A DNA stretch of 64,000 bases, from positions 2,542,001-2,606,000 of the forward strand of contig NZ_JACHZG010000001.1 in assembly GCF_014193425.1 (NCBI RefSeq), given 5' to 3'. Below, piece by piece: positions 23,605 through 36,243 of this stretch. The stretch comes from Microlunatus antarcticus. GTDB taxonomy: Bacteria > Actinomycetota > Actinomycetes > Propionibacteriales > Propionibacteriaceae. The translations under genes and the position numbers were made by a program. A model generated the notes under the pieces. The model saw only the letters and a program-made list of their open reading frames with translations, had not been told where the DNA came from and searched no databases. Positions within the stretch are counted from its first letter, which is position 1, and each line of letters opens with the position of its first letter.

Positions 23605-23679
23605 GCCCCCGTAGCTCAGGGGATAGAGCACCGCCCTCCGGAGGCGGTGGCGCAGGTTCGAATCCTGCCGGGGGCGCCA
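23605..23679 (+). tRNA. tRNA-Arg (anticodon CCG)
   Basis: Acceptor stem GCCCCCG (23605-23611) pairs with CGGGGGC (23669-23675), discriminator G, encoded CCA at 23677-23679. Anticodon stem CCGCC/GGCGG holds the loop CTCCGGA, anticodon CCG (codon CGG). T-loop is GGTTCGAATCC. Intact on the left side of the integrated element. Confidence 0.96.
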
Positions 23680-23680
23680 G
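23653..23680 (+). repeat. attL: 28-bp direct repeat in the tRNA 3' end
   Basis: The T-arm and acceptor 3' half of tRNA-Arg through the CCA and one further base are repeated without mismatch at 36216-36243. The flanking bases differ on both sides. This is the usual target of tyrosine integrases, and an integrase gene is present at the other end. Confidence 0.9.
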
Positions 23681-23791
23681 CGTCACACCTAGTCAGGTGC
23701 CGTTTGGCGCATGGGGAGGCCCAAGCCGTGCAACACACGTGCAACATCCTCGCTCTCCACGTTGAGCCTGGCCTCCTGGCTGGTCCCGCAC

Positions 23792-24496
23792 ATGTCGCCT
23801 GAAGACGACGAGCTGTTCCACGTGGTCGAGTTCGACATCACCCCGAATGCGGACGGGACCCCGGCGACGATCATCGCCCTCGGCGTTGGTCGCACGCCGA
23901 ACCCCCAGCACCGTGACGCCGAAGCACTCAAGGACGCCGAGACGGCCTACATGCTGCTCGTGGCGGGGATCATGGAAGCCGAGGGGCGACACACCGGCCA
24001 GGGCACGACGACGGGCAACGGCAGTCCGTGGGACTTCGAGCTGACCTACCCGGACGGTCGCAGAGGGCTCGGTGACCACGTGCTCTACACCGACCCCAAC
24101 ACAAACGAGGCGCCTGAGCAGGCAGCGTTCATGATGCGCCACGCCGCCGCCTGGGATCCTGACGGGGACTTTCGAAAGGTGCTCGCTTCGCCGGCGGTCG
24201 CCAAGCACATCCGGCGGCTGACGGCCTGGCACAGCGACCCCGACGTCTCGCTCGACGAGTCGCACCTCGTGATCGAAACTCACAGCGTGGTCCCCGCAGT
24301 CGAGCTGATCGACGTCTGGGAGCACCAGGCGGGGCACGCTCTCGAACCGCTCCGCTCGACGTTGACGCGCGACGAGGTCGGGGACGTCACCTACATCTGG
24401 GTCGTCACGGAGCGCTCGCCGAACATGATGGTGCTGGCACACGGGCTCTGGGTACCCGTCGCCTTCGGGGAAGACGTGCTGCGGGAGTCCGAGTAG
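23792..24496 (+). CDS. Hypothetical protein, element cargo
   Basis: 234 residues from ATG 23792; ATG 23711 would give 261, but that extension reads as non-protein sequence near attL. No family recognised. The protein is acidic with a strand-rich start (DELFHVVEFDITPNADGTPATIIALGV), a central WDFELTYPDGRRGLGDH, and a strand-rich end (VTYIWVVTERSPNMMVLAHGLWVPVAFG). No membrane helix or signal peptide. First gene after attL, so typical of accessory cargo. Start uncertain because no clear ribosome binding site precedes either ATG. Confidence 0.6.
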   Translation: MSPEDDELFHVVEFDITPNADGTPATIIALGVGRTPNPQHRDAEALKDAETAYMLLVAGIMEAEGRHTGQGTTTGNGSPWDFELTYPDGRRGLGDHVLYTDPNTNEAPEQAAFMMRHAAAWDPDGDFRKVLASPAVAKHIRRLTAWHSDPDVSLDESHLVIETHSVVPAVELIDVWEHQAGHALEPLRSTLTRDEVGDVTYIWVVTERSPNMMVLAHGLWVPVAFGEDVLRESE

Positions 24497-24546
24497 CCGA
24501 TGCGGTGTCGGCGCTGTCGAAGCGCTGAGCAGTGGGATGCTCGAGC

Positions 24547-24807
24547 ATGCCTAGCAGCACCCCGCCGCCGCCCAAGCCATCGTTCTGGCCCGACACCGCA
24601 GAGGGCGTCCTCATCCTGGTGCTTGGCGTCGCCGGCCTCGTCATGATCGTCGTCGGGCTGTTCCTCGGCGGGCCGCTACTGCCGGTGCTCATCGGTCTCG
24701 TGATCGTGGTCGCCTTCCTGATGGGCGGCAACCTCAGTGTCTTCAGCGTCGGCAAGCGGGGGCTGAACATGCAGAGCCGGGCGTCGTCGCAGCGCCGCAC
24801 CCGCTGA
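24547..24807 (+). CDS. Small two-helix membrane protein
   Basis: 86 residues. A Pro-rich start (SSTPPPPKPSFWPD) leads into two strongly hydrophobic helices (VLILVLGVAGLVMIVVGLFL and PVLIGLVIVVAFLMG), then a basic tail (KRGLNMQSRASSQRRTR) that should face the cytoplasm. 50 bases after the previous gene. Function unknown; small membrane proteins near unknown soluble genes in mobile elements are sometimes defence effectors, but nothing here proves it. Confidence 0.6.
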   Translation: MPSSTPPPPKPSFWPDTAEGVLILVLGVAGLVMIVVGLFLGGPLLPVLIGLVIVVAFLMGGNLSVFSVGKRGLNMQSRASSQRRTR

Positions 24808-24845
24808 AAGGGCTACCTCCGTCGCAAGATCGGCGTCGCCGGGGC

Positions 24846-24851
24846 TAGCCT
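24846..24851 (+). promoter_or_regulatory. -10 box before the 24882 gene
   Basis: TAGCCT, about 30 bases before the GTG start, followed by a short leader with GAGAGGA. Suggests the third cargo gene has its own promoter. Confidence 0.4.
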
Positions 24852-24881
24852 GACCTCCCCTTCCCCCGAGAGGACACCGTC

Positions 24882-25376
24882 GTGAACGTGACAGAGGAGT
24901 ACAAGACAGCCATCAGGGAGCTGCGAGCGGCACTCGGTGCTGACTCCGAGATGGTGCCGGTCGCGGCGCTCAACCAGGTGCTTGCCACTACCGAGATGGC
25001 GCCCATCGTCACCGCCGACACGAAGGTTGAGCACGGCGACCACACCAAGACGAGCGGTTCCTACTTCGTCCTGACGAAAGCTCTCGCGCTCATCGGCCAG
25101 TGGAAGGACGCGAAGCCGACCACCGACCCTGACGCGGGCGCGTACGAGCTCACCGTGAAGAGAAGGTCTGCTCTCCAAGACCTGAGCATCAGCTCTGCCT
25201 CAGGCACCCCGTGGGTGGGTACACAAGGGCAGGTACGTCCCTGGTCGCTCGACGGGGGCGCCACGCTCACCGCTGAGTACGAAGGCACCGCTTCCGTCAC
25301 GTTCCCGATGGGTTCGGCTTCCGCTGACGACACCGAGCGTCTGCTCAAGGAGCTCGTGGGAGACCTCAGCCGCTGA
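24882..25376 (+). CDS. Hypothetical protein, element cargo
   Basis: 164 residues, GTG start with GAGAGGA 9 bases upstream. The N-terminal half is helical (EYKTAIRELRAALGADSE, LNQVLATTE), the C-terminal half rich in Ser, Thr and strands (LTAEYEGTASVTFPMGSASADD). No signal peptide or membrane segment. I do not recognise the family. Last gene of the plus-strand cargo group; convergent with the minus-strand pair that follows. Confidence 0.62.
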   Translation: MNVTEEYKTAIRELRAALGADSEMVPVAALNQVLATTEMAPIVTADTKVEHGDHTKTSGSYFVLTKALALIGQWKDAKPTTDPDAGAYELTVKRRSALQDLSISSASGTPWVGTQGQVRPWSLDGGATLTAEYEGTASVTFPMGSASADDTERLLKELVGDLSR

Positions 25377-25427
25377 GCGGGGGGACAAAGACAGCGCCGA
25401 CGCCTTTGCGCTAGCTCGAGGCAGAAC

Positions 25428-25658
25428 CTACCGTCGAGGTACTTCGAGCTTGGTGATGTGCAGTGCGCCGGTCGTTGCTGCGACGACGGACGGCACGATC
25501 AGGAGGGCGCTCAGCCCACGGTCGGAAATCGCCAGGTAGGACAGGACTCCGAACGTGAGCCCGATCAGCAGGAGCGCCAGACCTGCCACGTCGAGGCGGC
25601 GCTGCGGACGCTGCTCGGGTGCAGGGCGGTGCGGACGGGGGCTATGCGTCATTGTCAT
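25428..25658 (-). CDS. Small two-helix membrane protein
   Basis: 76 residues: a Pro/Arg-rich cytoplasmic start (SPRPHRPAPEQRPQRR), then two helices (VAGLALLLIGLTFGVLSYLAI and ALLIVPSVVAATTGALHI). Overlaps the end of the 312-residue gene by 17 bases and must be cotranscribed with it. Unknown function; the pairing of a soluble protein with a small membrane protein is the notable feature. Confidence 0.6.
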   Translation of the reverse strand: MTMTHSPRPHRPAPEQRPQRRLDVAGLALLLIGLTFGVLSYLAISDRGLSALLIVPSVVAATTGALHITKLEVPRR

Positions 25659-26580
25659 GAGCTGCCCTCCTGTGTTCTAAGACCTCGAGCACGGTCCACG
25701 TCCGCGTGGTCCGACCGTTCTTCTCAGTCGCGTTCTCGCGGACACGCAAGTTGAAGATGTCTGTCTTGCGGATCGCCAGACCGCCGGCCACGAGGGCCAG
25801 GAAGTCTGCGTCCTCAACGGTAGCGTTCCGCTTCACCTCGGCTGTCTTGACCCGCCAGTTGTCTGGGCGGTCGAAGTCGATGGCCGACATCTGAGCCTCG
25901 GTCTCGAAGACGTTCTCCGTTTCTTCGACCTCGTCCTCCGGGCGCGCCGCGTCGTAGTCGGGCCTGGTCAGCGTGAAGTCGTCGGCGTCCTCGCCCTCAT
26001 CCGTCTCCGTCTCGGCGTCGGCCTCGATGGCGGCGACCGGCGGCGGGCTCTGCACCTGCACCTGTGTCACCCGGGAGTCGCTCAGCGGAGCCATGATCTG
26101 CCTGAGCTGCTTCTTGCGTCGGCGCTTGCGCTTGTTCAGCTCTTCCCAGACCGCCTCCGGGACCTCTTCGTAGGTGTCGTCCGACCAAGACAGGCCGACC
26201 TTCCCGTTGTCGAGGCTGTGATCCACGGCCTTGACGGTGGCCCGCGCCGACTTCGACGACCAGTAGATGATCTGGCTGACCGTGGGCACCCCTGCGTACT
26301 CGAGCGATGTCTTGATGCCGTCCTGGTTGTCGTGCACGAACCGCACGACCTCGATGAGGAACGAGCCCTCCTGAGCGGGCCGCACGAGCACCTCGGACCC
26401 TGCCGGCCCGTCGCCGAACGCACCGGCCTTGACGAAGTCGCCGGTCAGCCCCACGAGACCTTGGAGCACCTCGGCGACGTGGGAGGCACGGAGCTCGTGC
26501 AGCTTGGTGCCGTCCTCGTCCTCCCCCTCAAATCGCAGGGTCAGGGTGTCGACCACGCCGGCTGCCGGCTCCGTTGCCAT
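25642..26580 (-). CDS. Hypothetical protein with basic linker, element cargo
   Basis: 312 residues from ATG 26580. N-terminal strand-rich domain (VDTLTLRFEGEDEDGT, GSEVLVRPAQEGSFLIEVVRFV), a helical SQIIYWSSKSARATVKAVDH segment, a very basic stretch KRKRRRKKQL, an acidic low-complexity linker (ETETDEGEDADD), and a C-terminal domain ending in RKTDIFNLRVREN and TWTVLEVLEH. A TAGGTT -10 box at 26593-26588 sits 7 bases before the ATG, indicating a leaderless transcript. Domain layout resembles regulatory or membrane-coupled accessory proteins, but I cannot name the family. Confidence 0.65.
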   Translation of the reverse strand: MATEPAAGVVDTLTLRFEGEDEDGTKLHELRASHVAEVLQGLVGLTGDFVKAGAFGDGPAGSEVLVRPAQEGSFLIEVVRFVHDNQDGIKTSLEYAGVPTVSQIIYWSSKSARATVKAVDHSLDNGKVGLSWSDDTYEEVPEAVWEELNKRKRRRKKQLRQIMAPLSDSRVTQVQVQSPPPVAAIEADAETETDEGEDADDFTLTRPDYDAARPEDEVEETENVFETEAQMSAIDFDRPDNWRVKTAEVKRNATVEDADFLALVAGGLAIRKTDIFNLRVRENATEKNGRTTRTWTVLEVLEHRRAAHDNDA

Positions 26581-26654
26581 GGCGGAGAACCTACAACGGC
26601 GGACTGACGAAACGCTGTCTGCGCCACGACCGACGAGGCGGCGAACCGACCGGA

Positions 26655-27563
26655 TCAGGAGAACGCGACCCCGACCACGAGCACCCGGTGATCGCTCGCG
26701 TACGTCGGCGCGGTGTCGACGGTGCGCCGGCTGGTCAGGGTGATGCGTCCGGCTGCCTGAGCGGCAGGGCTGACCGCGACGACGTCGAGCGCTAGACCGG
26801 GCAGGTTGCGCCCGTAGTCGTGCCACGACGGCACGTCCGACCCGTACTCGTCCCACCCGGCGCAGGCGAGCTGCGAGCGCGGGCCGGGCTCGTCGCACGG
26901 CGTCTCGCCGGGCGGCGTCGAAGCGTTGAGGTCGCCCGCGAGCAGCCGCACCTTGCCGTCCATCTTGGCGAGCGCCGCCCGCATCTGTAGGTCACGCGCC
27001 TCAGGGTTGCCGCTCGAGAGGTGCGTCATCGCGACGCTGAGCATCGGGTCGGTGCCGGTCACCTTGCGGGAGAAGCCGACCTGTAGCAGCCGGCGACCGG
27101 TGTAGCCGCCGTCAGGGTCGCCGGGCAGCGTGGTCGTCGAGAGCTTGCCGGGTGACCACTTGCCGGAGTCGTAGAGCCACCCGGTGCGGTTCTGCGAGGT
27201 GTTGTCGCCGCCGATGTGCTCCCACTGCGAGCCCATCAGGTGAACGAGGTCGTCGAGCATCTGCGTGTCGCACTCGGTCAGCGCGTAGAGCGACGCCTTG
27301 ACCTGACCACGCAGCAGGTCCGCAAGGCGCTGAGCGCGGATGTAGCGGCGCGACGAGCCGCTGCCCTTCGCCCACGTCAGGTCGACGCCGTCGACGCTCT
27401 CGCCGGCGGTGTAGCCCTGCCAGTTGCAGTTCAGCTCGGCGTACGTCGTCGCGTAGGTGGTCGCGGCGCTGGCCGGCGCTGCCGGCAGCAGCGTGAAGAG
27501 CAGGGCGCCGACCAGGGCGAGGACGGCGGGCAGTCGGGGGGTGGGGACGCGCGGGTGTGCCAC
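26655..27563 (-). CDS. Secreted endonuclease/exonuclease/phosphatase-fold protein
   Basis: 302 residues. Signal peptide (LPAVLALVGALLFTLLPAAPASAA) then the EEP fold: metal-binding Glu in ALTECD, MTHLSSG, the Asp/Asn pair in LLAGDLNAS and the terminal SDH-type motif YASDHRVLVV. Members hydrolyse phosphodiesters, so a secreted DNase or phosphatase is likely. GTG start at 27563. The Shine-Dalgarno GAGAGG lies inside the 3' arm of a 9-bp hairpin at the end of the repeated leader. A secreted nuclease is unusual cargo in so small an element. Confidence 0.82.
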   Translation of the reverse strand: MAHPRVPTPRLPAVLALVGALLFTLLPAAPASAATTYATTYAELNCNWQGYTAGESVDGVDLTWAKGSGSSRRYIRAQRLADLLRGQVKASLYALTECDTQMLDDLVHLMGSQWEHIGGDNTSQNRTGWLYDSGKWSPGKLSTTTLPGDPDGGYTGRRLLQVGFSRKVTGTDPMLSVAMTHLSSGNPEARDLQMRAALAKMDGKVRLLAGDLNASTPPGETPCDEPGPRSQLACAGWDEYGSDVPSWHDYGRNLPGLALDVVAVSPAAQAAGRITLTSRRTVDTAPTYASDHRVLVVGVAFS

Positions 27564-27567
27564 GACG

Positions 27568-27750
27568 GGACCTCTCGGTGGAGATGAGAGGTCCGCGGGG
27601 ACAAGCCGCTACCTTCGCGGAGTCAGCCGCCTGACTCGAAGAGCGTGGAAGGAGGATTCGGGACACGGGTTGTCACCCGTCGTACTGGCCGCATCAGGAG
27701 CGACCCCAGGTCCCTAGTCGTTGACCTGCCGCTGTCGTGCGGTGGTTTCT
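27568..27750 (-). promoter_or_regulatory. Structured leader, copy 1 (before the secreted nuclease)
   Basis: About 183 nt that align over nearly their whole length with 34614-34829. On the minus strand, hairpins run: CCGC-acgaca-GCGG; CAGGTC...GACCTG; ACGGGT-gaca-ACCCGT; GAGTCAG-GCGG-CTGACTC; GCGG...CCGC; and a terminal GGACCTCTC...GAGAGGTCC that hides the Shine-Dalgarno box. Stem bases differ from copy 2 in a compensating way. Read on the plus strand, the end is a GC hairpin followed by TGGTTTCTT, so an antisense RNA ending there is also possible. Nothing else is coded between 27564 and 27898. Confidence 0.65.
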
Positions 27751-27886
27751 TCGACGGGTGTCGAGCAAGATCAATTCTGCCGAACGGCTGAGCCGTCTGC
27801 GCGAGGATTGTTCGGATGGCCCTCGACGGCCCCCGTCGGGCGACTGGCGCGGCGTCGAGTCGACCGTTCTTGTCGGAAGTCGGCTC

Positions 27887-27892
27887 TAGCCT
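27887..27892 (+). promoter_or_regulatory. -10 box of a leaderless small gene
   Basis: TAGCCT with 6 bases before the ATG at 27899. Same geometry as several chromosomal leaderless genes in the window. Confidence 0.45.
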
Positions 27893-27898
27893 GCCGGC

Positions 27899-28060
27899 AT
27901 GGAACCCGAAACCTGCCGATACTGCGGCGGTCCTGTCGTCCGGACGGCTATCCGCTCTCGTCCGAGGGCCGCTCCCGGCCCCGTCGAGGTGAGAGTCGAG
28001 CGACGGTGTGCGAGTCGCTGCTCGGCGAGCACACGACGACTGGGCGGCGGCGGCGCGTAG
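27899..28060 (+). CDS. Tiny zinc-finger-like protein
   Basis: 53-residue ORF starting MEPETCRYCGGPVV, with a CxxC knuckle near the N-terminus and a second CxxxC (RRCASRC) at about residues 37-41; the middle is basic. Zinc binding by these four cysteines is plausible. It ends 10 bases before the stop of the convergent 100-residue gene. Only the cysteine pattern and the promoter support it. Confidence 0.45.
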   Translation: MEPETCRYCGGPVVRTAIRSRPRAAPGPVEVRVERRCASRCSASTRRLGGGGA

Positions 28061-28070
28061 GGCGCTGCTG

Positions 28071-28373
28071 TTAACCCTGGGTTGACAGCTCGTCGCGTGC
28101 GTTCGTGACGGCAGCGAGCAACTGCCGGGCTGCCCGGTAGCCCTCCCCCGACGGTCCCAGCCCCGGCAGGCCACGGCTGCGGCGTGCCAGCGCCTCTCGC
28201 TCGGCAGCCTGACGCATCCCGCGCAGGTTGGCGACGAGCGCAGCCTCGACCCTGACCAGCCCCGCAAGCGCCGCACCGAGCTCAGGCAGAGGACCCTCGC
28301 CGAGCCGCTGCACGGCCCGCACCCTCATCGCGTGCGCCCTACTGGCAGCGCCCTCGAGCTGCGCCTCGGTCAT
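28071..28373 (-). CDS. Small Ala/Arg/Leu-rich helical protein
   Basis: 100 residues, almost entirely helical and charged (AVQRLGEGPLPELGAALAGLVRVEAALVANL, split by Pro/Gly). Starts in a TGATG overlap with the stop of the fibre-like gene. Last of five minus-strand genes that probably form one transcript. No family recognised; a small chaperone or connector for the preceding protein is a guess. Confidence 0.6.
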   Translation of the reverse strand: MTEAQLEGAASRAHAMRVRAVQRLGEGPLPELGAALAGLVRVEAALVANLRGMRQAAEREALARRSRGLPGLGPSGEGYRAARQLLAAVTNARDELSTQG

Positions 28374-29449
28374 CACGTCCGGTCGGCGAGCCGCGTGATG
28401 TAGATGCGCGACGCTGCGGTGACGGTCGTCGGCGTGCTGTCGGCGACGTTCTGCGCCCACCGCATCTGGAACCTGCCCGACGTGGCGACCCTGAGCAGGA
28501 TGTCCTCGCTGAAGGCGTCGGTCGCGGCAGCCTCGAGCCCGTACGCGACCGCCGTGTCGACGAAGTGACCGGACGACCGGGCGAGTGCCCCGGTGCCGTC
28601 CGTGCCGGCCACAGCCATGCCTCGCGCGGTCCTGTTGCCGGTCACGATGGCACCGCCCGAGTAGGACCACGCCGCCTTGATGTCGCCGCCGGAGTTCGCC
28701 CCGGTGCCGTGCACGAAGAGCTCGACCCGGTAGGTGCCGGGCACGAGGTCGACGAAGAGGTGCGGGTCGTCGATGAGGGTCGTGCTGCTCGCGACGGAGG
28801 TGTTCGCGGCCTTCTTGACGTAGACGAGCTGAGGCACCCACTGCCCGCCGGAGTAGGCGTACTGCAACCCCGTGTCGGCGAGGTAGGCGCTCATCCCCTC
28901 GAGCGGCACCGGGATCAGGGCGTCACGGCTCGCGGCGTCGTCGAAGCGCATCGTGATGAGCGCGACAAGCTGCGGGTCGAGCCGCCACTGAGCGACCACG
29001 CCCTGAGCGAGCGGCATGCCGCGCACGTCGGTGATGATGAGCGCGTCGCCGCCAGTCTCGATGGTCACCGTCTCCTGGTCGAGCGGGTCGCGGATGCCGT
29101 CCGGCAGCAGCTCGACGAGCGCGTGCGGGACGAGCACCTCCGTCGACTCTCCCCCGCCGCCCACCTCGACGGTCGCGAGCTTCTCGGGCGACGGCGGGAA
29201 CACCTCGCACCGAGAGTCGGCAGGTAGCGCCGTGGTCAGCGGCGACGCCAGCAGCAGCGTGTCGGCGTCGAGGTCGGCGCTGACGTAGGCGTAGGCGGTG
29301 CCGTCGACGAGGAAGGCACCGCTGCCGCCGGCGAAGGGTGCCGCGTCGTTCACGTAGAGCACGCTCGCGCCGACAGCGGCGTCACTGACGGTGTTCTCGG
29401 CGGCGTTGCGGGTGTCGACCGAGAGCACCCGCCCGAGCAGCTCAGCCAC
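28373..29449 (-). CDS. Phage tail/fibre-like protein
   Basis: 358 residues from GTG 29449 (GAGGCGG upstream); GTG 29467 is the alternative. N-terminal part has the actinophage minor-tail style pattern of short repeated strands (GASVLYVNDAAPF, AFLVDGTAYAYVSAD, LPDGIRDPLDQETVTIE). The C-terminal ~150 residues look like a jelly-roll or TNF-like head domain (GTYRVELFVHGTG, IKAAWSYSGG, GRFQMRWAQN). Likely a virion surface or receptor-binding part. It is the largest protein in the element's structural-like block. Confidence 0.6.
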   Translation of the reverse strand: MAELLGRVLSVDTRNAAENTVSDAAVGASVLYVNDAAPFAGGSGAFLVDGTAYAYVSADLDADTLLLASPLTTALPADSRCEVFPPSPEKLATVEVGGGGESTEVLVPHALVELLPDGIRDPLDQETVTIETGGDALIITDVRGMPLAQGVVAQWRLDPQLVALITMRFDDAASRDALIPVPLEGMSAYLADTGLQYAYSGGQWVPQLVYVKKAANTSVASSTTLIDDPHLFVDLVPGTYRVELFVHGTGANSGGDIKAAWSYSGGAIVTGNRTARGMAVAGTDGTGALARSSGHFVDTAVAYGLEAAATDAFSEDILLRVATSGRFQMRWAQNVADSTPTTVTAASRIYITRLADRT

Positions 29450-29726
29450 GGCTGAGCGCCGCCTCACGCTCGGCGTTGCCGGCCTTCGCCTGCTCGAGCG
29501 CCCGCCAGTAGTCGGCGTCCTGCTCGGCCAGCGGGCGCGTGTCCCGACGCTGCTGCTCGACCGGGTCGACGCCCATGAGCGCGAAGAGCTCGGTGAGCTG
29601 CCGGGGCTGCGCCTCAGCCGGCTCGCACCGGCTGCTGCGGTAGCCCCGACCAGCGAAGAGCGCGCACCGCTGGCCGTGAGCGACGCACTCGACGGCGGTC
29701 TGCCGCTTCGTCGTCAGCCGGGGCAC
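29442..29726 (-). CDS. Small Cys-containing protein of the structural-like block
   Basis: 94 residues, GTG at 29726 with AAAGG upstream, one base after the stop of the coiled-coil gene. Cysteines at about 14, 21 and 34 (VECVAHGQRCALF, SSRC) could bind metal. C-terminal half is helical and acidic (LTELFALMGVDPVEQQRRD, DYWRALEQAKAGNAER). Overlaps the next gene by 8 bases. Function unknown; a head-tail connector-sized protein. Confidence 0.58.
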   Translation of the reverse strand: MPRLTTKRQTAVECVAHGQRCALFAGRGYRSSRCEPAEAQPRQLTELFALMGVDPVEQQRRDTRPLAEQDADYWRALEQAKAGNAEREAALSRG

Positions 29727-29727
29727 G

Positions 29728-30510
29728 TCAGCCGACCTTTCCGGCGACCCTGGCGGCGAGGGCGTTGATGCTGTCCACGTGGCGCTGACGGCTGCGCGTC
29801 TCGCTGGCCTGCTGCTCGTCGCGCCGAGCCTGACGTCGCTCGGCGGCAGCAGCAGCCGCAGCGTCGGCAGCCGCGTAGGACGCCGCCGCCGCCTGCGTGG
29901 CGGCGCGCACGCCGGCACTGATGCTGCTGCGGAGCGCCGCGTCCTGCCGCCCGGCCAGCTCGGCGAGAAGCTTGTCCCCGCTCGATCCAGCCGAGCCGCC
30001 GACCCCGGCGAAGGGCGCGGGGGTGCCGGCGCTGGTCGTCGCCACCCAGCCGGCCAGGGCGCGCGACGCCTTCGCCCGGTCGAGGGCAGCGGCGGCGTCG
30101 TCGAGCAGCGCGAGGAAGTCGGCCTCGTCCTGGTCGGCGACGGCCAGCTCAGCGGTACGCCACTCGTCGGCGGCGCGGTAGGCGTCGTCGAGGCTCGCCT
30201 TCGCCTCGGTCACCTTCGACTGACGGGCGGTGAGCCGTGCCGTCGCCACGTCGAGCCGCGTCTTGAGCGCGGCGCTTGGCAACGTCTTGGGCTCGGTGGC
30301 CTGCTCGAAGGCGGCGGCGTCGGCAGCGGCAGCGCCGGCGTGGGCGGTCGTCGCGCTGACCAGCTCGGACCGCGCCTCGCTGACGGACACCTCGGCCTTG
30401 CGGACGTCCCGCTCGGCCTTCGCGATGGTGTCGGGCTTGCTGATGGTGGTCGTGTTGCTCATGTCGTGCCCTGTCTCTTGGTGCTTCGGGGGGTTGGTCG
30501 TGCTGGTCAT
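29728..30510 (-). CDS. Ala-rich coiled-coil protein
   Basis: 260 residues from ATG 30510, which overlaps the previous stop (ATGA) with CGAGGA upstream; ATG 30462 would give 244. Two long helical regions dominate: KAERDVRKAEVSVSEARSELVS and the Ala/Arg-rich C-terminal half with nine alanines in a row near ADAAAAAAAERRQ. No Cys or Trp-rich core. Architecture is like phage scaffold or tail-tape helper proteins, but sequence alone cannot decide. Confidence 0.6.
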   Translation of the reverse strand: MTSTTNPPKHQETGHDMSNTTTISKPDTIAKAERDVRKAEVSVSEARSELVSATTAHAGAAAADAAAFEQATEPKTLPSAALKTRLDVATARLTARQSKVTEAKASLDDAYRAADEWRTAELAVADQDEADFLALLDDAAAALDRAKASRALAGWVATTSAGTPAPFAGVGGSAGSSGDKLLAELAGRQDAALRSSISAGVRAATQAAAASYAAADAAAAAAAERRQARRDEQQASETRSRQRHVDSINALAARVAGKVG

Positions 30511-30860
30511 GCGTCCTCGGGTGGCGGCTTCTGCGCCAGCCCGAGAAGTCGGGTGCGGTCGCTCTCGATGCGGGCGAGAGCGGTCAGGGCTTGCAGCAGC
30601 ACCCGGTCGTCGTCGGTGCGTGCCGCGAGCACGGCGAGCCCGGCGGCTGCCCGGTCGAGGCGGACCTCGACGCCGGCCCGGAGGTCTTCGACCGGCTGCT
30701 CGGGCAGCTCGGCCAGCGCCGCCGAGAGGCGACGTGCTGCCTGCTGCGGCGTGATGGCGAGCCGGCGGGAGATAGCCACGACCGAGAAGCCATCGGCGAA
30801 GAGGTCGAGCACTTCGGCTTCCCGTTCGCGCTGCGCGGCGCGCTCCCCTGGTTTGGTCAT
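30507..30860 (-). CDS. HTH protein, small-terminase-like
   Basis: 117 residues. A helix-turn-helix of the sigma-region-4/resolvase type lies at about 15-50 (VLDLFADGFSVVAISRRLAITPQQAARRL), followed by an all-helical oligomerisation-like tail (DDRVLLQALTALARIESDRTRLL). Position at the head of a block with tail-like genes makes a TerS-type packaging-specificity protein attractive; a transcription regulator is the alternative. In PICI-type satellites a satellite TerS redirects helper packaging (known for that group). Confidence 0.5.
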   Translation of the reverse strand: MTKPGERAAQREREAEVLDLFADGFSVVAISRRLAITPQQAARRLSAALAELPEQPVEDLRAGVEVRLDRAAAGLAVLAARTDDDRVLLQALTALARIESDRTRLLGLAQKPPPEDA

Positions 30861-30895
30861 GAGAGAAGCCTGACACCGATTTTCCGAGCGCCTCA

Positions 30896-30907
30896 GAGGA
30901 TTGAACG
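30896..30907 (-). promoter_or_regulatory. Shared 12-bp motif, copy at the structural-like block
   Basis: GAGGATTGAACG, preceded by CCTC to form a tiny palindrome. The same 12 bases recur at 34897-34908 and, with two changes, at 27803-27814; all three are upstream of minus-strand transcription units. Candidate operator or activator site of the element. The rest of 30861-31132 holds no gene; it has GC hairpins at 31084-31120. Confidence 0.45.
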
Positions 30908-31132
30908 GGGATTTCCTCGGGGTCGTCGGGTGCCGCTGACAAGGGCAAAGGGTGCCGCAGCAGCGCCGATCTTGCACGCATGTTGCACGCCAGGGGCTCA
31001 GTCGAGCGTCTCCCGTAGTCAGAGCCTTGCGGCGGGCAGGTCCAAAGCCTGCCAACCAGCCGCCGGGCGGCGCTGACCTGCCTTCGAGAGAGCGGTGCTC
31101 TCGCGCACGTGCGCGCGAGGCCGACGGATCGA

Positions 31133-31468
31133 TCACGAGCGCGCCAGAGGCAGCCGCACGCCGGCGACCGTGACCTTCTCGCCGGCGACCTCGACCTCGG
31201 CACCGATCAGGGGCGAGGCGTAGTTGCGCGCGAGCTGCTCGAGCCACAAGCCGAGCGGGCGTGACGAGAGGTGGCCGTGACGGTGCTCGGCAGCCCGGAC
31301 ACATCGACCCTGATGGACGTGCAGGGGCGCGACAGCAGCCGACCAGGCGAGCAGCCCCGGGCGCGCCGAGTCAATGAGCTCAGAGCAGACGTCGCAGACG
31401 ATGACGGGGCAACCGAGGTCGACCGAGTAGCCCTCGGTGGGGTGAACGGGGTGTGCGAGACGAAGCAT
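31133..31468 (-). CDS. Small Cys/His protein, probable zinc binder
   Basis: 111 residues, ATG at 31468 with AGGAAGACCAGGAA upstream. The centre has CPVIVCDVCSELI and LHVHQGRC, a set of Cys and His residues suited to one zinc site. C-terminal strands (GAEVEVAGEKVTVAGVRLPL). Encoded just beyond the origin-like region, so it may regulate replication or packaging; this is inference. Confidence 0.6.
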   Translation of the reverse strand: MLRLAHPVHPTEGYSVDLGCPVIVCDVCSELIDSARPGLLAWSAAVAPLHVHQGRCVRAAEHRHGHLSSRPLGLWLEQLARNYASPLIGAEVEVAGEKVTVAGVRLPLARS

Positions 31469-31540
31469 GTTCCTGGTCTTCCTGTTGAGGTTGCGGTGCT
31501 CCCCTCACGAGGCGTGAGGGGGTTGTGCTGCGTGCCGACC

Positions 31541-31703
31541 GGGGGGGGTGGACAGGGTCGACATGTCCACCCCCGAGTCCTCTGAGATTTGGGCTCAGCC
31601 TGTGGATAACCCCCCTAACACCTCTTAGATCAGGCGTAGCCACTGGTGGGCGAGGATTTTCCACCCCGGGCGGGGGGTGGACATGTCCCCCTGTCCACCC
31701 CCC
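31541..31703. other. Putative replication origin of the element
   Basis: Two inverted repeats of the same sequence flank the region: GGGGGTGGACA (31544-31554) with its complement at 31564-31574, and GGGGGGTGGACA (31672-31683) with its complement at 31692-31703. Between them lie TGTGGATAA (31601-31609), a perfect DnaA-box complement, and the most AT-rich stretch nearby (31575-31660). It directly follows the primase-helicase gene, the usual place for a plasmid- or satellite-type origin. Confidence 0.55.
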
Positions 31704-33968
31704 TCACCGGTTCCTGACCTTGCCGTCGTTGACCTCGGCGTCGAGAGCGTTGACGAGCAGGGCGAGGGCGTCGTCGAAGGCAGCCCGGTCACGCGAGGCC
31801 AGCGTCTTGCGGACCTTCCCGACCGGCTGCCACTCGGGCAGCAGCTTGGACAGGACCGCGTCCTTGACCCGCTTCAACCGCGCCTCGTGCTGCGCGTCCT
31901 CGGCGACCGCAGCCCGCACGCCGTCGCTTCGTCCACGGGAGACGACCGACCGCTCGGCCACCTTCGACAGCGCCTCTTCGATCCCGGTCCGGCAGCGGTC
32001 GGACTCGTCCATGACGACTCCCGAGAGCCGCCAGTCGTCCTCCGTGGGCACGCGCCGACCGTCGAGCAGCGTCAACGCGACCATGACCTTCGCCCGGCAG
32101 AGCAGCGCGTGACCGTCGAGCGCCTTCGCCTCGCCGCGCTGCCGAGCACGGTGCGCCGCCTTGATGGTGTCGACCGCAACCTGAGGCACCACCAGCTCGT
32201 GCCGACCGCCGAAGTCGCTCGGCCAGCGCTGCTCGGACACGACCCACGGTTCGGGCGCGTCAGGCTCCGCGTCGGGAATGGTCGGGTCGACCGCCGACAG
32301 CCACACGAACCGCTGAGGCGTCCCCCCATCCGCCTCTGCGAACAGCCCCCCGGCCCGCTCAGGCTGCACCCCCACGACTGCGCACAGCCGGTAGGTGTGC
32401 GGGTCGAGCGGGATGTCCTTCGTCGGGTCGGCGTACGCGAAGCCGAGCCGCTCGCCCGACCACGCCTTCCGCATCACCGGCAGCAGGTTGGAGCCCTGCC
32501 GCGCCGACATCGAGGCGAGGGTGTCCACCTCGGAGATGTCGAACAGCACCGCGTCACGCAGCCGCTCGACGCCCCCCTTGGTCCGGGTCGCGTACTGCTT
32601 GACCAGCCCCTCACCCGAGCCGGCCTCGCGCTCGTAGACCTCGCCCGACACGACGACGGCGTCGCGAGCTGCGCCCGTTGCCGCCCCCTTGCCGCCACCC
32701 GACGCCGCGACGAGCGCGAAGAACAGGTTGAGCGAGGCCTGCGAGCCGATGGTCGGCGGCAGCACGACGTGCGGCGGAACGGTCGTGATGACTCGGGCGA
32801 GCGCCACGCCGAGCACGGCCCACGGCGACGCCATCCGAGCTCGCGCCCACCCGTGGATCGTCCGCAAAGACTCCCGCTCCTGCCAGAAGTCGACCTCGAC
32901 GAGCGCCCCGCCGGGCTCGAGTTCCAACGGCGCAGCGATGACCGGCTTGGCCGCGACGTGCTCGACCGCCCGCAGCCACGTCGTGCGCACGAACGCGTCC
33001 GTGAACCTCGCGTCACGCGGTGCGTGCTCAAGCACGAGCCGCCCGACGTCTTCGAGGCCGAGCCCGGACCACGGTGCGACGGCAACCTCAGCGAGCCGGC
33101 AGCACGCGCGCCACAGGGTGTCGTTCCACGCCGGCCCGGGCATCCCAGGACGCCACCCGTCAACCTTCGCCTCGCGGCACGCGTCGAGTGCAGCGAGGTG
33201 CTCCCGGAGCGGCGCATCGGCCCAAGCGTCGACGCGGGACCGCACGCCGGGCTCGAGCGCCCCGTACGTCGGCCCGGAGTAGTCGACGAGGGTCGCACCC
33301 GGACCAGCGTCCGGCGTCGCCGGCACGTCCCGGATGCCGTAGCTCAGCAGCACGTCACTCAGACCGTCGAGGGTGACAACCTCGGCGTCGGTGTCCAGGT
33401 GGTCGAGCACCGCCGAGACCGGGCTGCCCGGGTCCTTGACGTTGACTGAGCCGGGCACGCGGAGGATGCGCGAGACGTCGAAGACGTTGTCGACCGTCCC
33501 GCCGTTCTCCCCGGCCACGAGCTCGACCAGCCACCGAAAGCGAGCGACTAGCCGAGCGGCGACGTGGACGTCGCCTGCCTCGAGCCGCCAGTACGGCTGC
33601 ACGCCGTGACCGGAGTCGACGACAGCGACCGGCTGCGCGCGCAGCATCCCCGAGAGGTCGGAGACGACCCGGTCGCACGCGTCCCGGTCGGGCATGCCGC
33701 CCGCCTTGACATCGAGGTCGGCCCACAGGGCAACAACCCGGGTGACGTCGCTGGCAGCGCCGCGCCCCGTCGCGTCGGGGCTCAGCGGGTTGACGCCGAA
33801 CCAGACGTTCGCCCGGCCCTCAAGGAACGGCTGTGCCCGAGCCGGGGCCGTCGCTGCGGTGCCGAGCGTCGGTGTAAACGTCCCGCCGAAGTCGTGGCAC
33901 ACCGAGACTCGCTCGCTGTCGCCGACTGCCAGCGCCGCCAGTAGCCGCGTGAGCTGGTCGGCGCTCAT
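31704..33968 (-). CDS. Primase-helicase type replication protein
   Basis: 754 residues. The N-terminal ~230 residues carry archaeo-eukaryotic primase marks: the DxD-type VVALWADLDVK (about 85), VVDSGHGVQPYWRL (about 118) and DVSRILRVPGSVNVK (about 165). The C-terminal half is a DUF3987/D5-like ATPase region: LFFALVAASGGGKGAATG is the P-loop (Gly instead of Ser/Thr after the Lys), AVLFDISEVDTL a Walker B-like strand. Likely initiates element replication at the adjacent origin. ATG overlaps the upstream gene (ATGA). Confidence 0.78.
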   Translation of the reverse strand: MSADQLTRLLAALAVGDSERVSVCHDFGGTFTPTLGTAATAPARAQPFLEGRANVWFGVNPLSPDATGRGAASDVTRVVALWADLDVKAGGMPDRDACDRVVSDLSGMLRAQPVAVVDSGHGVQPYWRLEAGDVHVAARLVARFRWLVELVAGENGGTVDNVFDVSRILRVPGSVNVKDPGSPVSAVLDHLDTDAEVVTLDGLSDVLLSYGIRDVPATPDAGPGATLVDYSGPTYGALEPGVRSRVDAWADAPLREHLAALDACREAKVDGWRPGMPGPAWNDTLWRACCRLAEVAVAPWSGLGLEDVGRLVLEHAPRDARFTDAFVRTTWLRAVEHVAAKPVIAAPLELEPGGALVEVDFWQERESLRTIHGWARARMASPWAVLGVALARVITTVPPHVVLPPTIGSQASLNLFFALVAASGGGKGAATGAARDAVVVSGEVYEREAGSGEGLVKQYATRTKGGVERLRDAVLFDISEVDTLASMSARQGSNLLPVMRKAWSGERLGFAYADPTKDIPLDPHTYRLCAVVGVQPERAGGLFAEADGGTPQRFVWLSAVDPTIPDAEPDAPEPWVVSEQRWPSDFGGRHELVVPQVAVDTIKAAHRARQRGEAKALDGHALLCRAKVMVALTLLDGRRVPTEDDWRLSGVVMDESDRCRTGIEEALSKVAERSVVSRGRSDGVRAAVAEDAQHEARLKRVKDAVLSKLLPEWQPVGKVRKTLASRDRAAFDDALALLVNALDAEVNDGKVRNR

Positions 33969-34177
33969 CGGAGCCCCTCCGCACGGATCGCAGCGAAGAC
34001 GCTCTCAATGCGGTCGAGCCGCTCGAGGATTTCGCCCTGGTCGGCCCCGTAGAGCCACCGCTTCAAGAGCCTCGCGAGGATGCCGAGCGATACGATGAGA
34101 CCAGACCGCGTGCCCGCTGTCTTCGTCTGGTCGCCGCTTCCTGCCCGGGGGCGGCGATTGGCGTCTCCGGGGCTCAT
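33965..34177 (-). CDS. Small basic protein upstream of the primase
   Basis: 70 residues, basic N-terminus (SPGDANRRPRAGSGDQTK), one amphipathic/hydrophobic helix (SGLIVSLGILARLLKRWLYG) and a C-terminal helix QGEILERLDRIESVFAAIRAEG. It overlaps both neighbours by 4 bases, so it is coupled with the primase gene. Possibly a replication accessory or membrane tether; unknown family. Confidence 0.6.
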   Translation of the reverse strand: MSPGDANRRPRAGSGDQTKTAGTRSGLIVSLGILARLLKRWLYGADQGEILERLDRIESVFAAIRAEGLR

Positions 34178-34398
34178 GGCGCCACCTGCGCGAAGATGCC
34201 CGGCCCGTCGACGACGTCGCGGCAGGCTTCCCAGCTCGCGCTGGTCGGGTGGTCGAGGCAGTCGCCTCCGATGTTGTAGACCACCTCAGCGCCGCAGCGC
34301 GGGCAGGTGACGACGCAGGCTGACCCGTCCTCGTGCTGCTTGTTGCGCGTCGGCTTGCCGCACTCAGGGCAGGGCCACGGACGCTCACGCCGGCTCAC
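34174..34398 (-). CDS. Zinc-ribbon protein
   Basis: 74 residues with GTG at 34398 overlapping the excisionase stop (GTGA). Two knuckles, CPECG and CPRCG, about 21 residues apart, form a classical zinc ribbon; the rest (GGDCLDHPTSASWEACRDVV) is short. Probably binds nucleic acid or protein. Member of the excisionase-to-primase operon. Confidence 0.65.
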   Translation of the reverse strand: MSRRERPWPCPECGKPTRNKQHEDGSACVVTCPRCGAEVVYNIGGDCLDHPTSASWEACRDVVDGPGIFAQVAP

Positions 34399-34610
34399 GA
34401 CGCGACCTTCGTGCTCGTCACGGGGGTTACCAGGGCGTCGATGTCGGCCATGTCGACGCGGAGCAGCTTGCCGCCGACGCGGTAGCCCGGCAGCCGGCCA
34501 TCGGCGATCCACCGGCGGATGGTGCGGGGGTCGACACCGAGGGCGCTGGCGCCTGTCGCGATGTCGGTCAGGCGCCGCTTGGGCGCGGTGGGTGCGGGTG
34601 AACGAGTCAC
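34395..34610 (-). CDS. Excisionase-like MerR-type HTH protein
   Basis: 71 residues from GTG 34610; the open frame continues to 34658 but that part overlaps the structured leader. The winged HTH is clear: ALGVDPRTIRRWIADGRLPGYRVGGKLLRVD, then an MADIDALV helix, as in phage excisionases and helix_turn_helix_17 proteins. Probably controls integrase directionality and possibly its own operon. Its ribosome binding region lies in the last hairpin of the leader. Confidence 0.75.
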   Translation of the reverse strand: MTRSPAPTAPKRRLTDIATGASALGVDPRTIRRWIADGRLPGYRVGGKLLRVDMADIDALVTPVTSTKVAS

Positions 34611-34613
34611 TTC

Positions 34614-34829
34614 GGACCGTCTCTCACTCGAGCTGTGGGAGAAGGTCCGCGGGGACAAGCCGCTACCGTCGCGAGGTCAGCCGCCTGACCTGAAGAGCAA
34701 GGAAGGAGGATTCGGGACACGGGTTGTCACCCGTCCTACTGGCCTGTTCCCCTAGCGAATGGTCGCCGTGAGAACCCGACCCCAGGTCCCTAGCCGTTGA
34801 CCTGCCCGCTGCGTCTGCGGGTGGTTTCT
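34614..34829 (-). promoter_or_regulatory. Structured leader, copy 2 (before the excisionase)
   Basis: About 216 nt matching copy 1 at 27568-27750, with a ~30-nt extra segment around 34741-34772. Same order of hairpins: CCCGC-agacgca-GCGGG, CAGGTC...GACCTG, ACGGGT-gaca-ACCCGT, AGGTCAG-GCGG-CTGACCT, terminal GGACC...GGTCC next to GAGAGACGG. The first, fourth and last stems differ from copy 1 by paired changes. The plus-strand reading again ends in a GC hairpin plus TGGTTTCT. The interval 34611-34924 has no other gene. Confidence 0.65.
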
Positions 34830-34896
34830 CCGGCGCGGTCAGCGGCATCAACTTGCTGACAGGGTCAACTTTACCGGACAAGCGGGGACACCTCTT

Positions 34897-34908
34897 GAGG
34901 ATTGAACG
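34897..34908 (-). promoter_or_regulatory. Shared 12-bp motif, copy near the integrase
   Basis: GAGGATTGAACG preceded by CCTCTT, identical to 30896-30907. It lies between the integrase stop and the leader of the excisionase operon, where a promoter or operator for that operon would be. Confidence 0.45.
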
Positions 34909-34924
34909 CCAGTTTTGACCGGCG

Positions 34925-36064
34925 TCAAACCTCGACCATCCGCGACAGCAGCCGGGCAATCTCAGTGTCACGGTCGGTCGCAGCGTGTTGGTAGAGCATC
35001 GCTGCCGCCGTGGTCGAGTGCCCGAGCCGGCTCATCAGCTCGGCGAGCGTGGCACCCGTCTGAGCCGCAAGGGTGGCGCCGGTGTGCCGCAGGTCGTGGA
35101 ACCGAAGGTCGGGCCTCCCTGCCCCCGTCCTGGCCTTGTCCCACGTCTTGAAGAACGTGCCGTGCCCGAGCTGCTTCTCGCTCATCGGTGCGGGGAAGAG
35201 CAGCCCGTCACGCCCCCACGCAGCGTGATCGGCGAGGTGCTGACGGACCACGGGCAGCAAGTGCGGAGGGATCGCGACGTCACGCACGCCGGCGTCGGAC
35301 TTGGGCGCCCCAACGATGGGCTCACCGTCGACCCACGTGACGGCGCGGCGCACCATCACCTTGCCGGCCTTGAGGTCGACGTCGCTGCGGCGCAGCTCGG
35401 TCAGCTCGCCGAACCTGAGCGCACACCACGACGCGAGCAGCACCATCACGCCGTAGCGGTCGGGCAGCGCGGCGACGATGGCCTCGAGCTCGCCGAGCGT
35501 GGCCGGCTTGATCTTGTGCACCCGCTTCGTGTGGCTGCCGGCGTTGCGGATGTTGCAGGGGTTGACGGCGATGAGCTCGTCGGAGACGGCCCACCCGAGG
35601 ATGGTGCGTAGCAGGGCGTAGGCGTGCGCTCTGCGGGTTGGCAGAGCCGGGTCGAGGGTCGCGTACCACTCGCGCACGACGAACGGCGTGATCGCCTTGA
35701 GCGGCAGGTCACCGAGCGTCGGGGTGATCTTCTGCTCGAGCAGCCGCTTGTAGAGGTCGCGGGTCCGCGGCTTGAGCGGCTGACGTCGACCGTCCGTCCG
35801 GTCGAGCCACTGCGCCGAGTAGGCGGCGAGGGTGGTCGGCTGCGCGCGGTTCCGGACGGTCGGCGCGAGCCAGTCGCCGCCGTCGATGAGCTTGCGCTCT
35901 GTCGCAAGCCACCCGCGAGCGTCGAGCAGCGTGCCGAACGTGCCCGATGGTCGGTGCAGGTTGAGGTCGGGTCCGGTGTAGGCCGCTTGGTACCGACCCG
36001 AGGGCAGCTTGCGGATGCGCCCGAAGGGCTCGCGCTGCTTCCTCGCCCTGGCAGTTTTCGGCAC
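34925..36064 (-). CDS. int: Tyrosine-type site-specific integrase
   Basis: 379 residues. Arm-binding/AP2-like N-terminus (GRYQAAYTGPDLNLHRPSGTFG), SAM-like core-binding domain (about 75-170) and catalytic domain with the first Arg in CALRFGELTELRRSD, HDLRHTGATL (His-x-x-Arg), and LGHSTTAAAMLYQHA (His and nucleophile Tyr). GTG start with GAGAGGA upstream. Located 150 bases from attR, the normal arrangement for tRNA-targeting elements. Confidence 0.95.
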   Translation of the reverse strand: MPKTARARKQREPFGRIRKLPSGRYQAAYTGPDLNLHRPSGTFGTLLDARGWLATERKLIDGGDWLAPTVRNRAQPTTLAAYSAQWLDRTDGRRQPLKPRTRDLYKRLLEQKITPTLGDLPLKAITPFVVREWYATLDPALPTRRAHAYALLRTILGWAVSDELIAVNPCNIRNAGSHTKRVHKIKPATLGELEAIVAALPDRYGVMVLLASWCALRFGELTELRRSDVDLKAGKVMVRRAVTWVDGEPIVGAPKSDAGVRDVAIPPHLLPVVRQHLADHAAWGRDGLLFPAPMSEKQLGHGTFFKTWDKARTGAGRPDLRFHDLRHTGATLAAQTGATLAELMSRLGHSTTAAAMLYQHAATDRDTEIARLLSRMVEV

Positions 36065-36215
36065 TGTCGATCCTCTCGTCGTGCAACACCGTGCAATACG
36101 AGAGTACCGGAATGTCCATGCCTGTCCGGGTCTGACGACGAGCTTGAGGTGACAAAACTGCTGGTCAGGGGGCGTTTCGCCTAGCGGGGGCTATGGTGTC
36201 TGCGAAGCCTTCAGA

Positions 36216-36243
36216 CAGGTTCGAATCCTGCCGGGGGCGCCAG
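36216..36243 (+). repeat. attR: 28-bp copy of the tRNA-Arg 3' end
   Basis: Exact copy of 23653-23680. The bases to its left do not fold into a tRNA, so this is only the displaced tail. Confidence 0.9.

Follow-up and report, generated by a model that had tools for sequence, protein, structure and literature searches.

Among known systems, the locus described here resembles translational riboswitches and similar structured leaders at 5′ ends in being a long structured leader whose final hairpin is predicted to lie over the start region of the gene. Control by RNA in an integrated, phage-satellite-like element is described for P4, with its CI immunity RNA and seqA, and relatives of these RNAs are detected by the Rfam profiles C4 and isrK, according to PMC10111431. 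The put RNAs of HK022, two sequence-similar structured RNAs located early in two units of a phage-type element, are given a length of ~70 nt and two stem-loops in PMC9378689; they follow early promoters and act in antitermination via the zinc-binding domain of the RNA polymerase beta' subunit. Another point of comparison is the ar14 sRNA, which has a C/U-rich stretch resembling an anti-ribosome site between its hairpins. The literature search, which covered open-licence papers, found no system that combines an excisionase with an antisense RNA, a riboswitch or a leader RNA.

We analysed a 64,000-nucleotide stretch of the Microlunatus antarcticus genome (the window), in which a non-coding unit is present twice, in the same orientation and ~7.05 kb apart:

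27568..27752, minus strand: copy A of the unit, directly before a nuclease gene
34614..34831, minus strand: copy B of the unit, directly before an excisionase-like gene

The unit measures ~185-218 nt and has six or seven hairpins. An ungapped block of 102 nt (27589-27690 and 34643-34744) is 92% identical between the copies, with eight differences, and a second block of 30 nt (27701-27730 and 34777-34806) is 97% identical. Elsewhere the copies have diverged: hairpin 3 differs in length by 22 nt and the inner parts of hairpin 7 are unlike. When copy B (34614-34829) was compared with the host genome by BLAST, copy A was retrieved at an E-value of 5.2e-39; of the 21 matches listed at E up to 10, two were the copies themselves and the rest had E-values of 0.24 or worse, so no third copy was found. 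The similarity ends before the genes, the coding starts aligning no better than shuffled sequences (763/1000). The two stretches are thus diverged copies of one non-coding unit. The original prediction, that two copies with long identical blocks and a common series of hairpins precede two different genes, is borne out in these respects.

Comparison with known families did not place the unit. Rfam 15 gave only tRNA matches in the whole window, and when both copies were searched with permissive filters at E up to 10 nothing reached a gathering score. The best matches were ar14 (RF02344), to which the copies do not belong at 16.7 bits (gathering score 58.8, E 0.66), and HOTTIP_1 (18.8 bits, gathering score 50). 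In contrast to the P4 RNAs, neither C4 nor isrK came up when the window and the copies were searched. The copies also differ from the HK022 put RNAs (PMC9378689) in size and number of hairpins. Translational riboswitches differ from this locus in that here there is no Rfam family, ligand, metabolic gene or detected spread. The likeness to a riboswitch drawn in the original prediction was not supported, given no Rfam match, no spread among the sampled genomes and two genes of which neither is metabolic, and a ligand-binding riboswitch is unsupported.

Both copies are located on an integrated element that was delimited by a repeat search:

23653..36243: integrated element of 12,591 bases (12.6 kb), with two identical 28-bp repeats as its ends
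23653-23680 and 36216-36243: the identical 28-bp end repeats, the first in the 3′ end of tRNA-Arg
23605-23679: tRNA-Arg, the integration site of the element
25642-26556: phage-type gene of family phrog_3243
26655..27563, minus strand: Exo_endo_phos nuclease gene (PF03372, E 6.6e-6), behind copy A
31704..33968, minus strand: DNA primase-polymerase gene (phrog_28894, E 1.3e-95)
34395..34610, minus strand: excisionase-like HTH_17 gene (HTH_17, E 1.4e-9; phrog_66 excisionase/regulator, E 5.3e-8), behind copy B
34925..36064, minus strand: integrase gene (Phage_integrase, E 1.1e-16), upstream of copy B

The Exo_endo_phos match of the nuclease is barely over the cut-off (26.5 versus 24.5 bits), and its N-terminus resembles a signal peptide, as judged by eye from the translation. 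The profile scan of the proteins also revealed a small HTH gene and unknown genes. No capsid or conjugation families were found among the element proteins scanned, several of which had no match at all. The element is a putative phage satellite. Phage relatives of two element proteins came mostly from phages of Mycobacterium and Gordonia. The phrog_3243 protein matches 37 phage records; with gene 86 of Mycobacterium phage prophiT48-1 it shares 60% identity from end to end. Beside copy A, a small frame on the plus strand (27900-28061) has a CxxC-type motif (MEPETCRYCGG..., by eye).

Evidence for RNA structure in the unit comes mainly from hairpin 5:

27620..27637, minus strand: hairpin 5 of copy A, GAGTCAG GCGG CTGACTC, with two compensated pairs relative to copy B
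34674..34691, minus strand: hairpin 5 of copy B, AGGTCAG GCGG CTGACCT, with two compensated pairs relative to copy A
27568..27594, minus strand: hairpin 7 of copy A (predicted fold), outer five pairs invariant; it includes the GAGAGG that resembles a ribosome site for the nuclease gene
34614..34648, minus strand: hairpin 7 of copy B (predicted fold), outer five pairs invariant; it includes the GAGAG that resembles a ribosome site for the excisionase-like gene

The two two-sided changes in the 7 bp of hairpin 5 account for four of the eight differences in the 102-nt block. In a simulation with eight substitutions placed at random in this block (200,000 trials), at least two compensated pairs arose in 0.023-0.026% of the trials, or in 0.16-0.17% when the changes were partly dinucleotide (P 0.0002-0.0017). 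These compensated changes provide fair evidence for hairpin 5. Each of the remaining stems either shows no change, is altered by an indel or is located in a poorly aligned part. Covariation must be weighed against the power to detect it, as PMC11234323 sets out, and two sequences give little such power. With two sequences, the hairpin series as a whole is without statistical support: 30 of the 32 pairs of the hand-written structure are constant, and the observed covariation score is reached in 136 of 500 shuffles of the columns. At least three covarying stems had been claimed. Hairpin 5 bears this out with its two pairs changed on both sides, and in hairpin 1 (CCGC/GCGG versus CCCGC/GCGGG) pairing is kept, but through an indel; the closing GGACC/GGTCC stem does not covary, since all five of its pairs are the same in copies A and B and only the poorly aligned inner part differs. 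The folding energies of both copies are unremarkable, with weak z-scores (copy A, -1.94 on the minus and -1.21 on the plus strand; copy B, -0.51 and -1.45, respectively) that changed to -2.07 (A) and -1.12 (B) on the minus strand with slightly longer ends.

With no Rfam family and no third copy in the host genome or the sampled sets, what we have is a two-copy orphan with covariation on one hairpin. From its sequence the pair is a candidate regulatory leader, of a general kind that is known and with a sequence that is new. That the two copies serve a putative regulation by RNA is likely. More specifically, we tentatively prefer, while holding it to be somewhat doubtful, the reading that the duplicated unit is a sense 5′ leader that helps to control translation of both genes and so ties production of the nuclease to excision. 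Copies A and B would be the 5′ leader RNAs of two minus-strand transcripts of one element, and in the predicted fold the last hairpin of each leader covers the start of the gene behind it, excisionase-like or nuclease. In the dormant element both genes would be poorly translated. An induction signal (an RNA, a protein or a small molecule) would bind or refold the conserved part and release both genes, and the nuclease, having its own copy of the leader, would obey the same command and share the timing of excision. This reading draws on the duplication, the positions of the copies and one compensated hairpin, all of which are observed, and on start-region hairpins that are predicted only. In its favour, each copy directly precedes a gene in the same orientation.

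We examined the start regions in the predicted minus-strand folds. In both copies, most of the GAGAG(G) stretch ahead of the start codon is base-paired as part of hairpin 7; in copy B, two of nine positions of that stretch are predicted unpaired. The mean predicted unpaired fraction from -16 to -4 is 0.17 for the excisionase-like gene and 0.26 for the nuclease; the same measure gives 0.10 for the primase-polymerase gene, 0.19 for the integrase, 0.24 for the HTH gene and 0.52 for the gene at 31133. In these models, start-site occlusion is not a distinguishing mark of the two leaders, because three of the four other element genes score as low. The minus-strand hairpin over the ribosome site named in the original prediction is therefore predicted in both copies, but it does not set them apart. 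The conserved part also contains a stretch resembling an anti-ribosome site:

27649..27656, minus strand: conserved TCCTCCTT of copy A, anti-ribosome-site-like
34703..34710, minus strand: conserved TCCTCCTT of copy B, reading AAGGAGGA on the plus strand, anti-ribosome-site-like

Its complement AAGGAGG occurs within the element only in copies A and B. On the plus strand, no start codon was seen by eye at the usual distance from this ribosome-site-like stretch. The conserved UCCUCCUU, only partly paired in the prediction, resembles the 3′ end of 16S rRNA and may bind ribosome sites elsewhere.

Upstream of the copies we identified a composite motif:

27769..27810, minus strand: putative control site ahead of copy A, CAATCCTC-N28-TTGATC
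34863..34904, minus strand: putative control site ahead of copy B, CAATCCTC-N28-TTGACC

Exact occurrences of CAATCCTC-N28-TTGAYC in the 4.37-Mb host genome are limited to the regions upstream of copies A and B, and one more place has it with one mismatch, the motif having been defined from the same two sites on which its uniqueness was then tested. CAATCCTC itself occurs three times in the 12,591-base element, always on the minus strand (34904, 30903 and 27810) and each time ahead of a gene or leader, but is absent from the remaining 51 kb of the window; from this distribution it is possibly a shared operator. As wholes, the upstream regions align no better than shuffles (269/1000). A scan for consensus promoters recognised none on either strand of either copy. 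The orientation of the genes, the end of the similarity before the coding starts and the upstream composite favour the sense strand, to the extent that sequence features can indicate it.

The main rival is a plus-strand antisense RNA of ~190 nt, which we regard as unlikely. It would begin near the gene start, run away from it over the leader and end at a small terminator. Its pairing partner would be the excisionase message at the start region and perhaps, by similarity, the same region of the nuclease message. The plus strand of copy A has a terminator-like hairpin followed by TTTCTTC; by the same rule copy B has none, so the original claim of such a hairpin in both copies stands for copy A only. 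The plus strand of the exact copies folds slightly better than the minus strand (A, -80.9 versus -75.3; B, -94.3 versus -91.1 kcal/mol), as does that of the consensus (-60.95 versus -58.4), but with longer ends the difference disappears for copy B (-102.1 minus, -102.0 plus). Against an antisense RNA, moreover, no plus-strand promoter was recognised in either copy by the consensus scan, and the sole motif that both copies share outside their limits, the CAATCCTC composite, is situated beyond the supposed antisense 3′ end.

Two further explanations dispense with RNA function, and we hold both to be improbable to a similar degree. The unit may act at the level of DNA, as a site of protein binding, replication or recombination in which the many inverted repeats are incidental. 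Such elements can have paired replication sites, as in phage P4, the present element encodes its own primase-polymerase, and sequence alone cannot decide the strand. A sequence-specific site would, however, keep its bases and not swap them in compensated pairs, and the list of repeats of at least 20 nt contained no iteron-like ones within the copies. Alternatively, the copies may be what is left of a segmental duplication, with no function in common and the compensated hairpin a coincidence. That only two copies are known, in one element of one genome, agrees with a relic; the uneven distribution of the differences, with 102 nt at 92% identity beside unalignable stretches, together with the two compensated pairs, argues against it.

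Less probable still is a cis-acting antiterminator, by which each copy, early in its transcript, would make RNA polymerase resist downstream terminators as the HK022 put RNA does; the layout of two similar structured RNAs early in two units matches, but the length and hairpin number of the present unit, and the fact that it abuts the gene start, do not (PMC9378689). A frame of 17 codons is open in both leaders:

27676-27623 (copy A) and 34730-34677 (copy B), minus strand: 17-codon frame starting with GTG

That this frame is a translated leader peptide, whose ribosome would steer how hairpin 5 and the sequence behind it fold, is very improbable: the two peptides, MTTRVPNPPSTLFESGG and MTTRVPNPPSLLFRSGG, have equal length and the same stop, and a Corynebacterium motif before ilvB first taken for a structured RNA was re-read as an upstream frame (PMC10272879), but both changed codons alter the amino acid with no sign of selection on the peptide, no conserved ribosome site is seen by eye before the GTG, and an open frame so short across so few changes is expected by chance.

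We also searched for further copies. BLAST of copy B against 196 genomes (relatives plus host) gave matches at E up to 0.001 in five; the four non-host matches were of 25-30 nt at ~5e-4 and were rejected as chance, two (L011 and L012) lying in or against ordinary genes and two (L009 and L010) judged from the alignments alone. A covariance model built from the two copies (R1), run on the window together with eight related-element loci, retrieved only these copies, other matches scoring 6.8 bits or less. Larger genome sets, partly overlapping, were searched with this model under stricter filters and with the best few first-look candidates per genome scored, such that weak or diverged copies could be missed. 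With the host included each time, 23 of 293 genomes from the order had a match (E up to 0.1; ~29 expected by chance), as did five of 396 from the phylum (E up to 0.01; ~4 expected) and four of 364 from the class (E up to 0.005; ~2 expected). The best outsider (L087) scored 23.2 bits (E 3.5e-5) against 242 and 200 bits for the copies; it spans the gap between two ordinary opposite-strand frames, overlapping both, and was put down to chance. Alignments of five weaker outsiders were inspected as well. Copy B with its flanks gave no blastn match among phages and plasmids. Five exact patterns gave one match between them in IMG/VR, and one pattern gave one match in GTDB contigs (a Pseudomonas record); both were taken as chance, and IMG/VR gave nothing with the nuclease, integrase and primase-polymerase proteins as queries, a search that reaches only close relatives. 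Relatives of the nuclease at E up to 1e-15 were confined to the host among 245 genomes, and at E up to 1e-8 none was found in phages or plasmids. The original prediction named a lack of further copies as a refuting outcome; none was found in the genomes, phages, plasmids and viral contigs sampled, which weakens the claim of a family more than the local claim.

Elements related through the primase-polymerase were present in nine of the 245 genomes, host included, and those outside the host do not share the leader. One of these (L028) has the same order of integrase, excisionase and primase; its integrase-excisionase gap (L028:1052-1245) folds strongly (z -3.81) and has no detectable similarity to copies A and B. 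In another (L029) the gap upstream of the excisionase folds no better than chance (z 0.20). Excisionase-like relatives were found in 20 of the 245 genomes, host included, and some of them (L063, L054 and L077) have a hairpin of other sequence near the gene start, as seen by eye.

We consider it rather unlikely that the two copies represent a new class of mobile-element leader RNA, which would sense an induction signal and free excision and a secreted nuclease together, by means of the anti-ribosome-site-like stretch and the start-region hairpins, the switch having been copied to a cargo gene. At present there is one orphan pair in one element of one genome, with a regulatory role that is putative on the sequences at hand. 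Because the pair stands naturally ahead of two different genes, the question is open to direct test. If the leader reading is true, duplication of an RNA leader would be the means by which an integrated element ties a cargo nuclease to its decision to excise.
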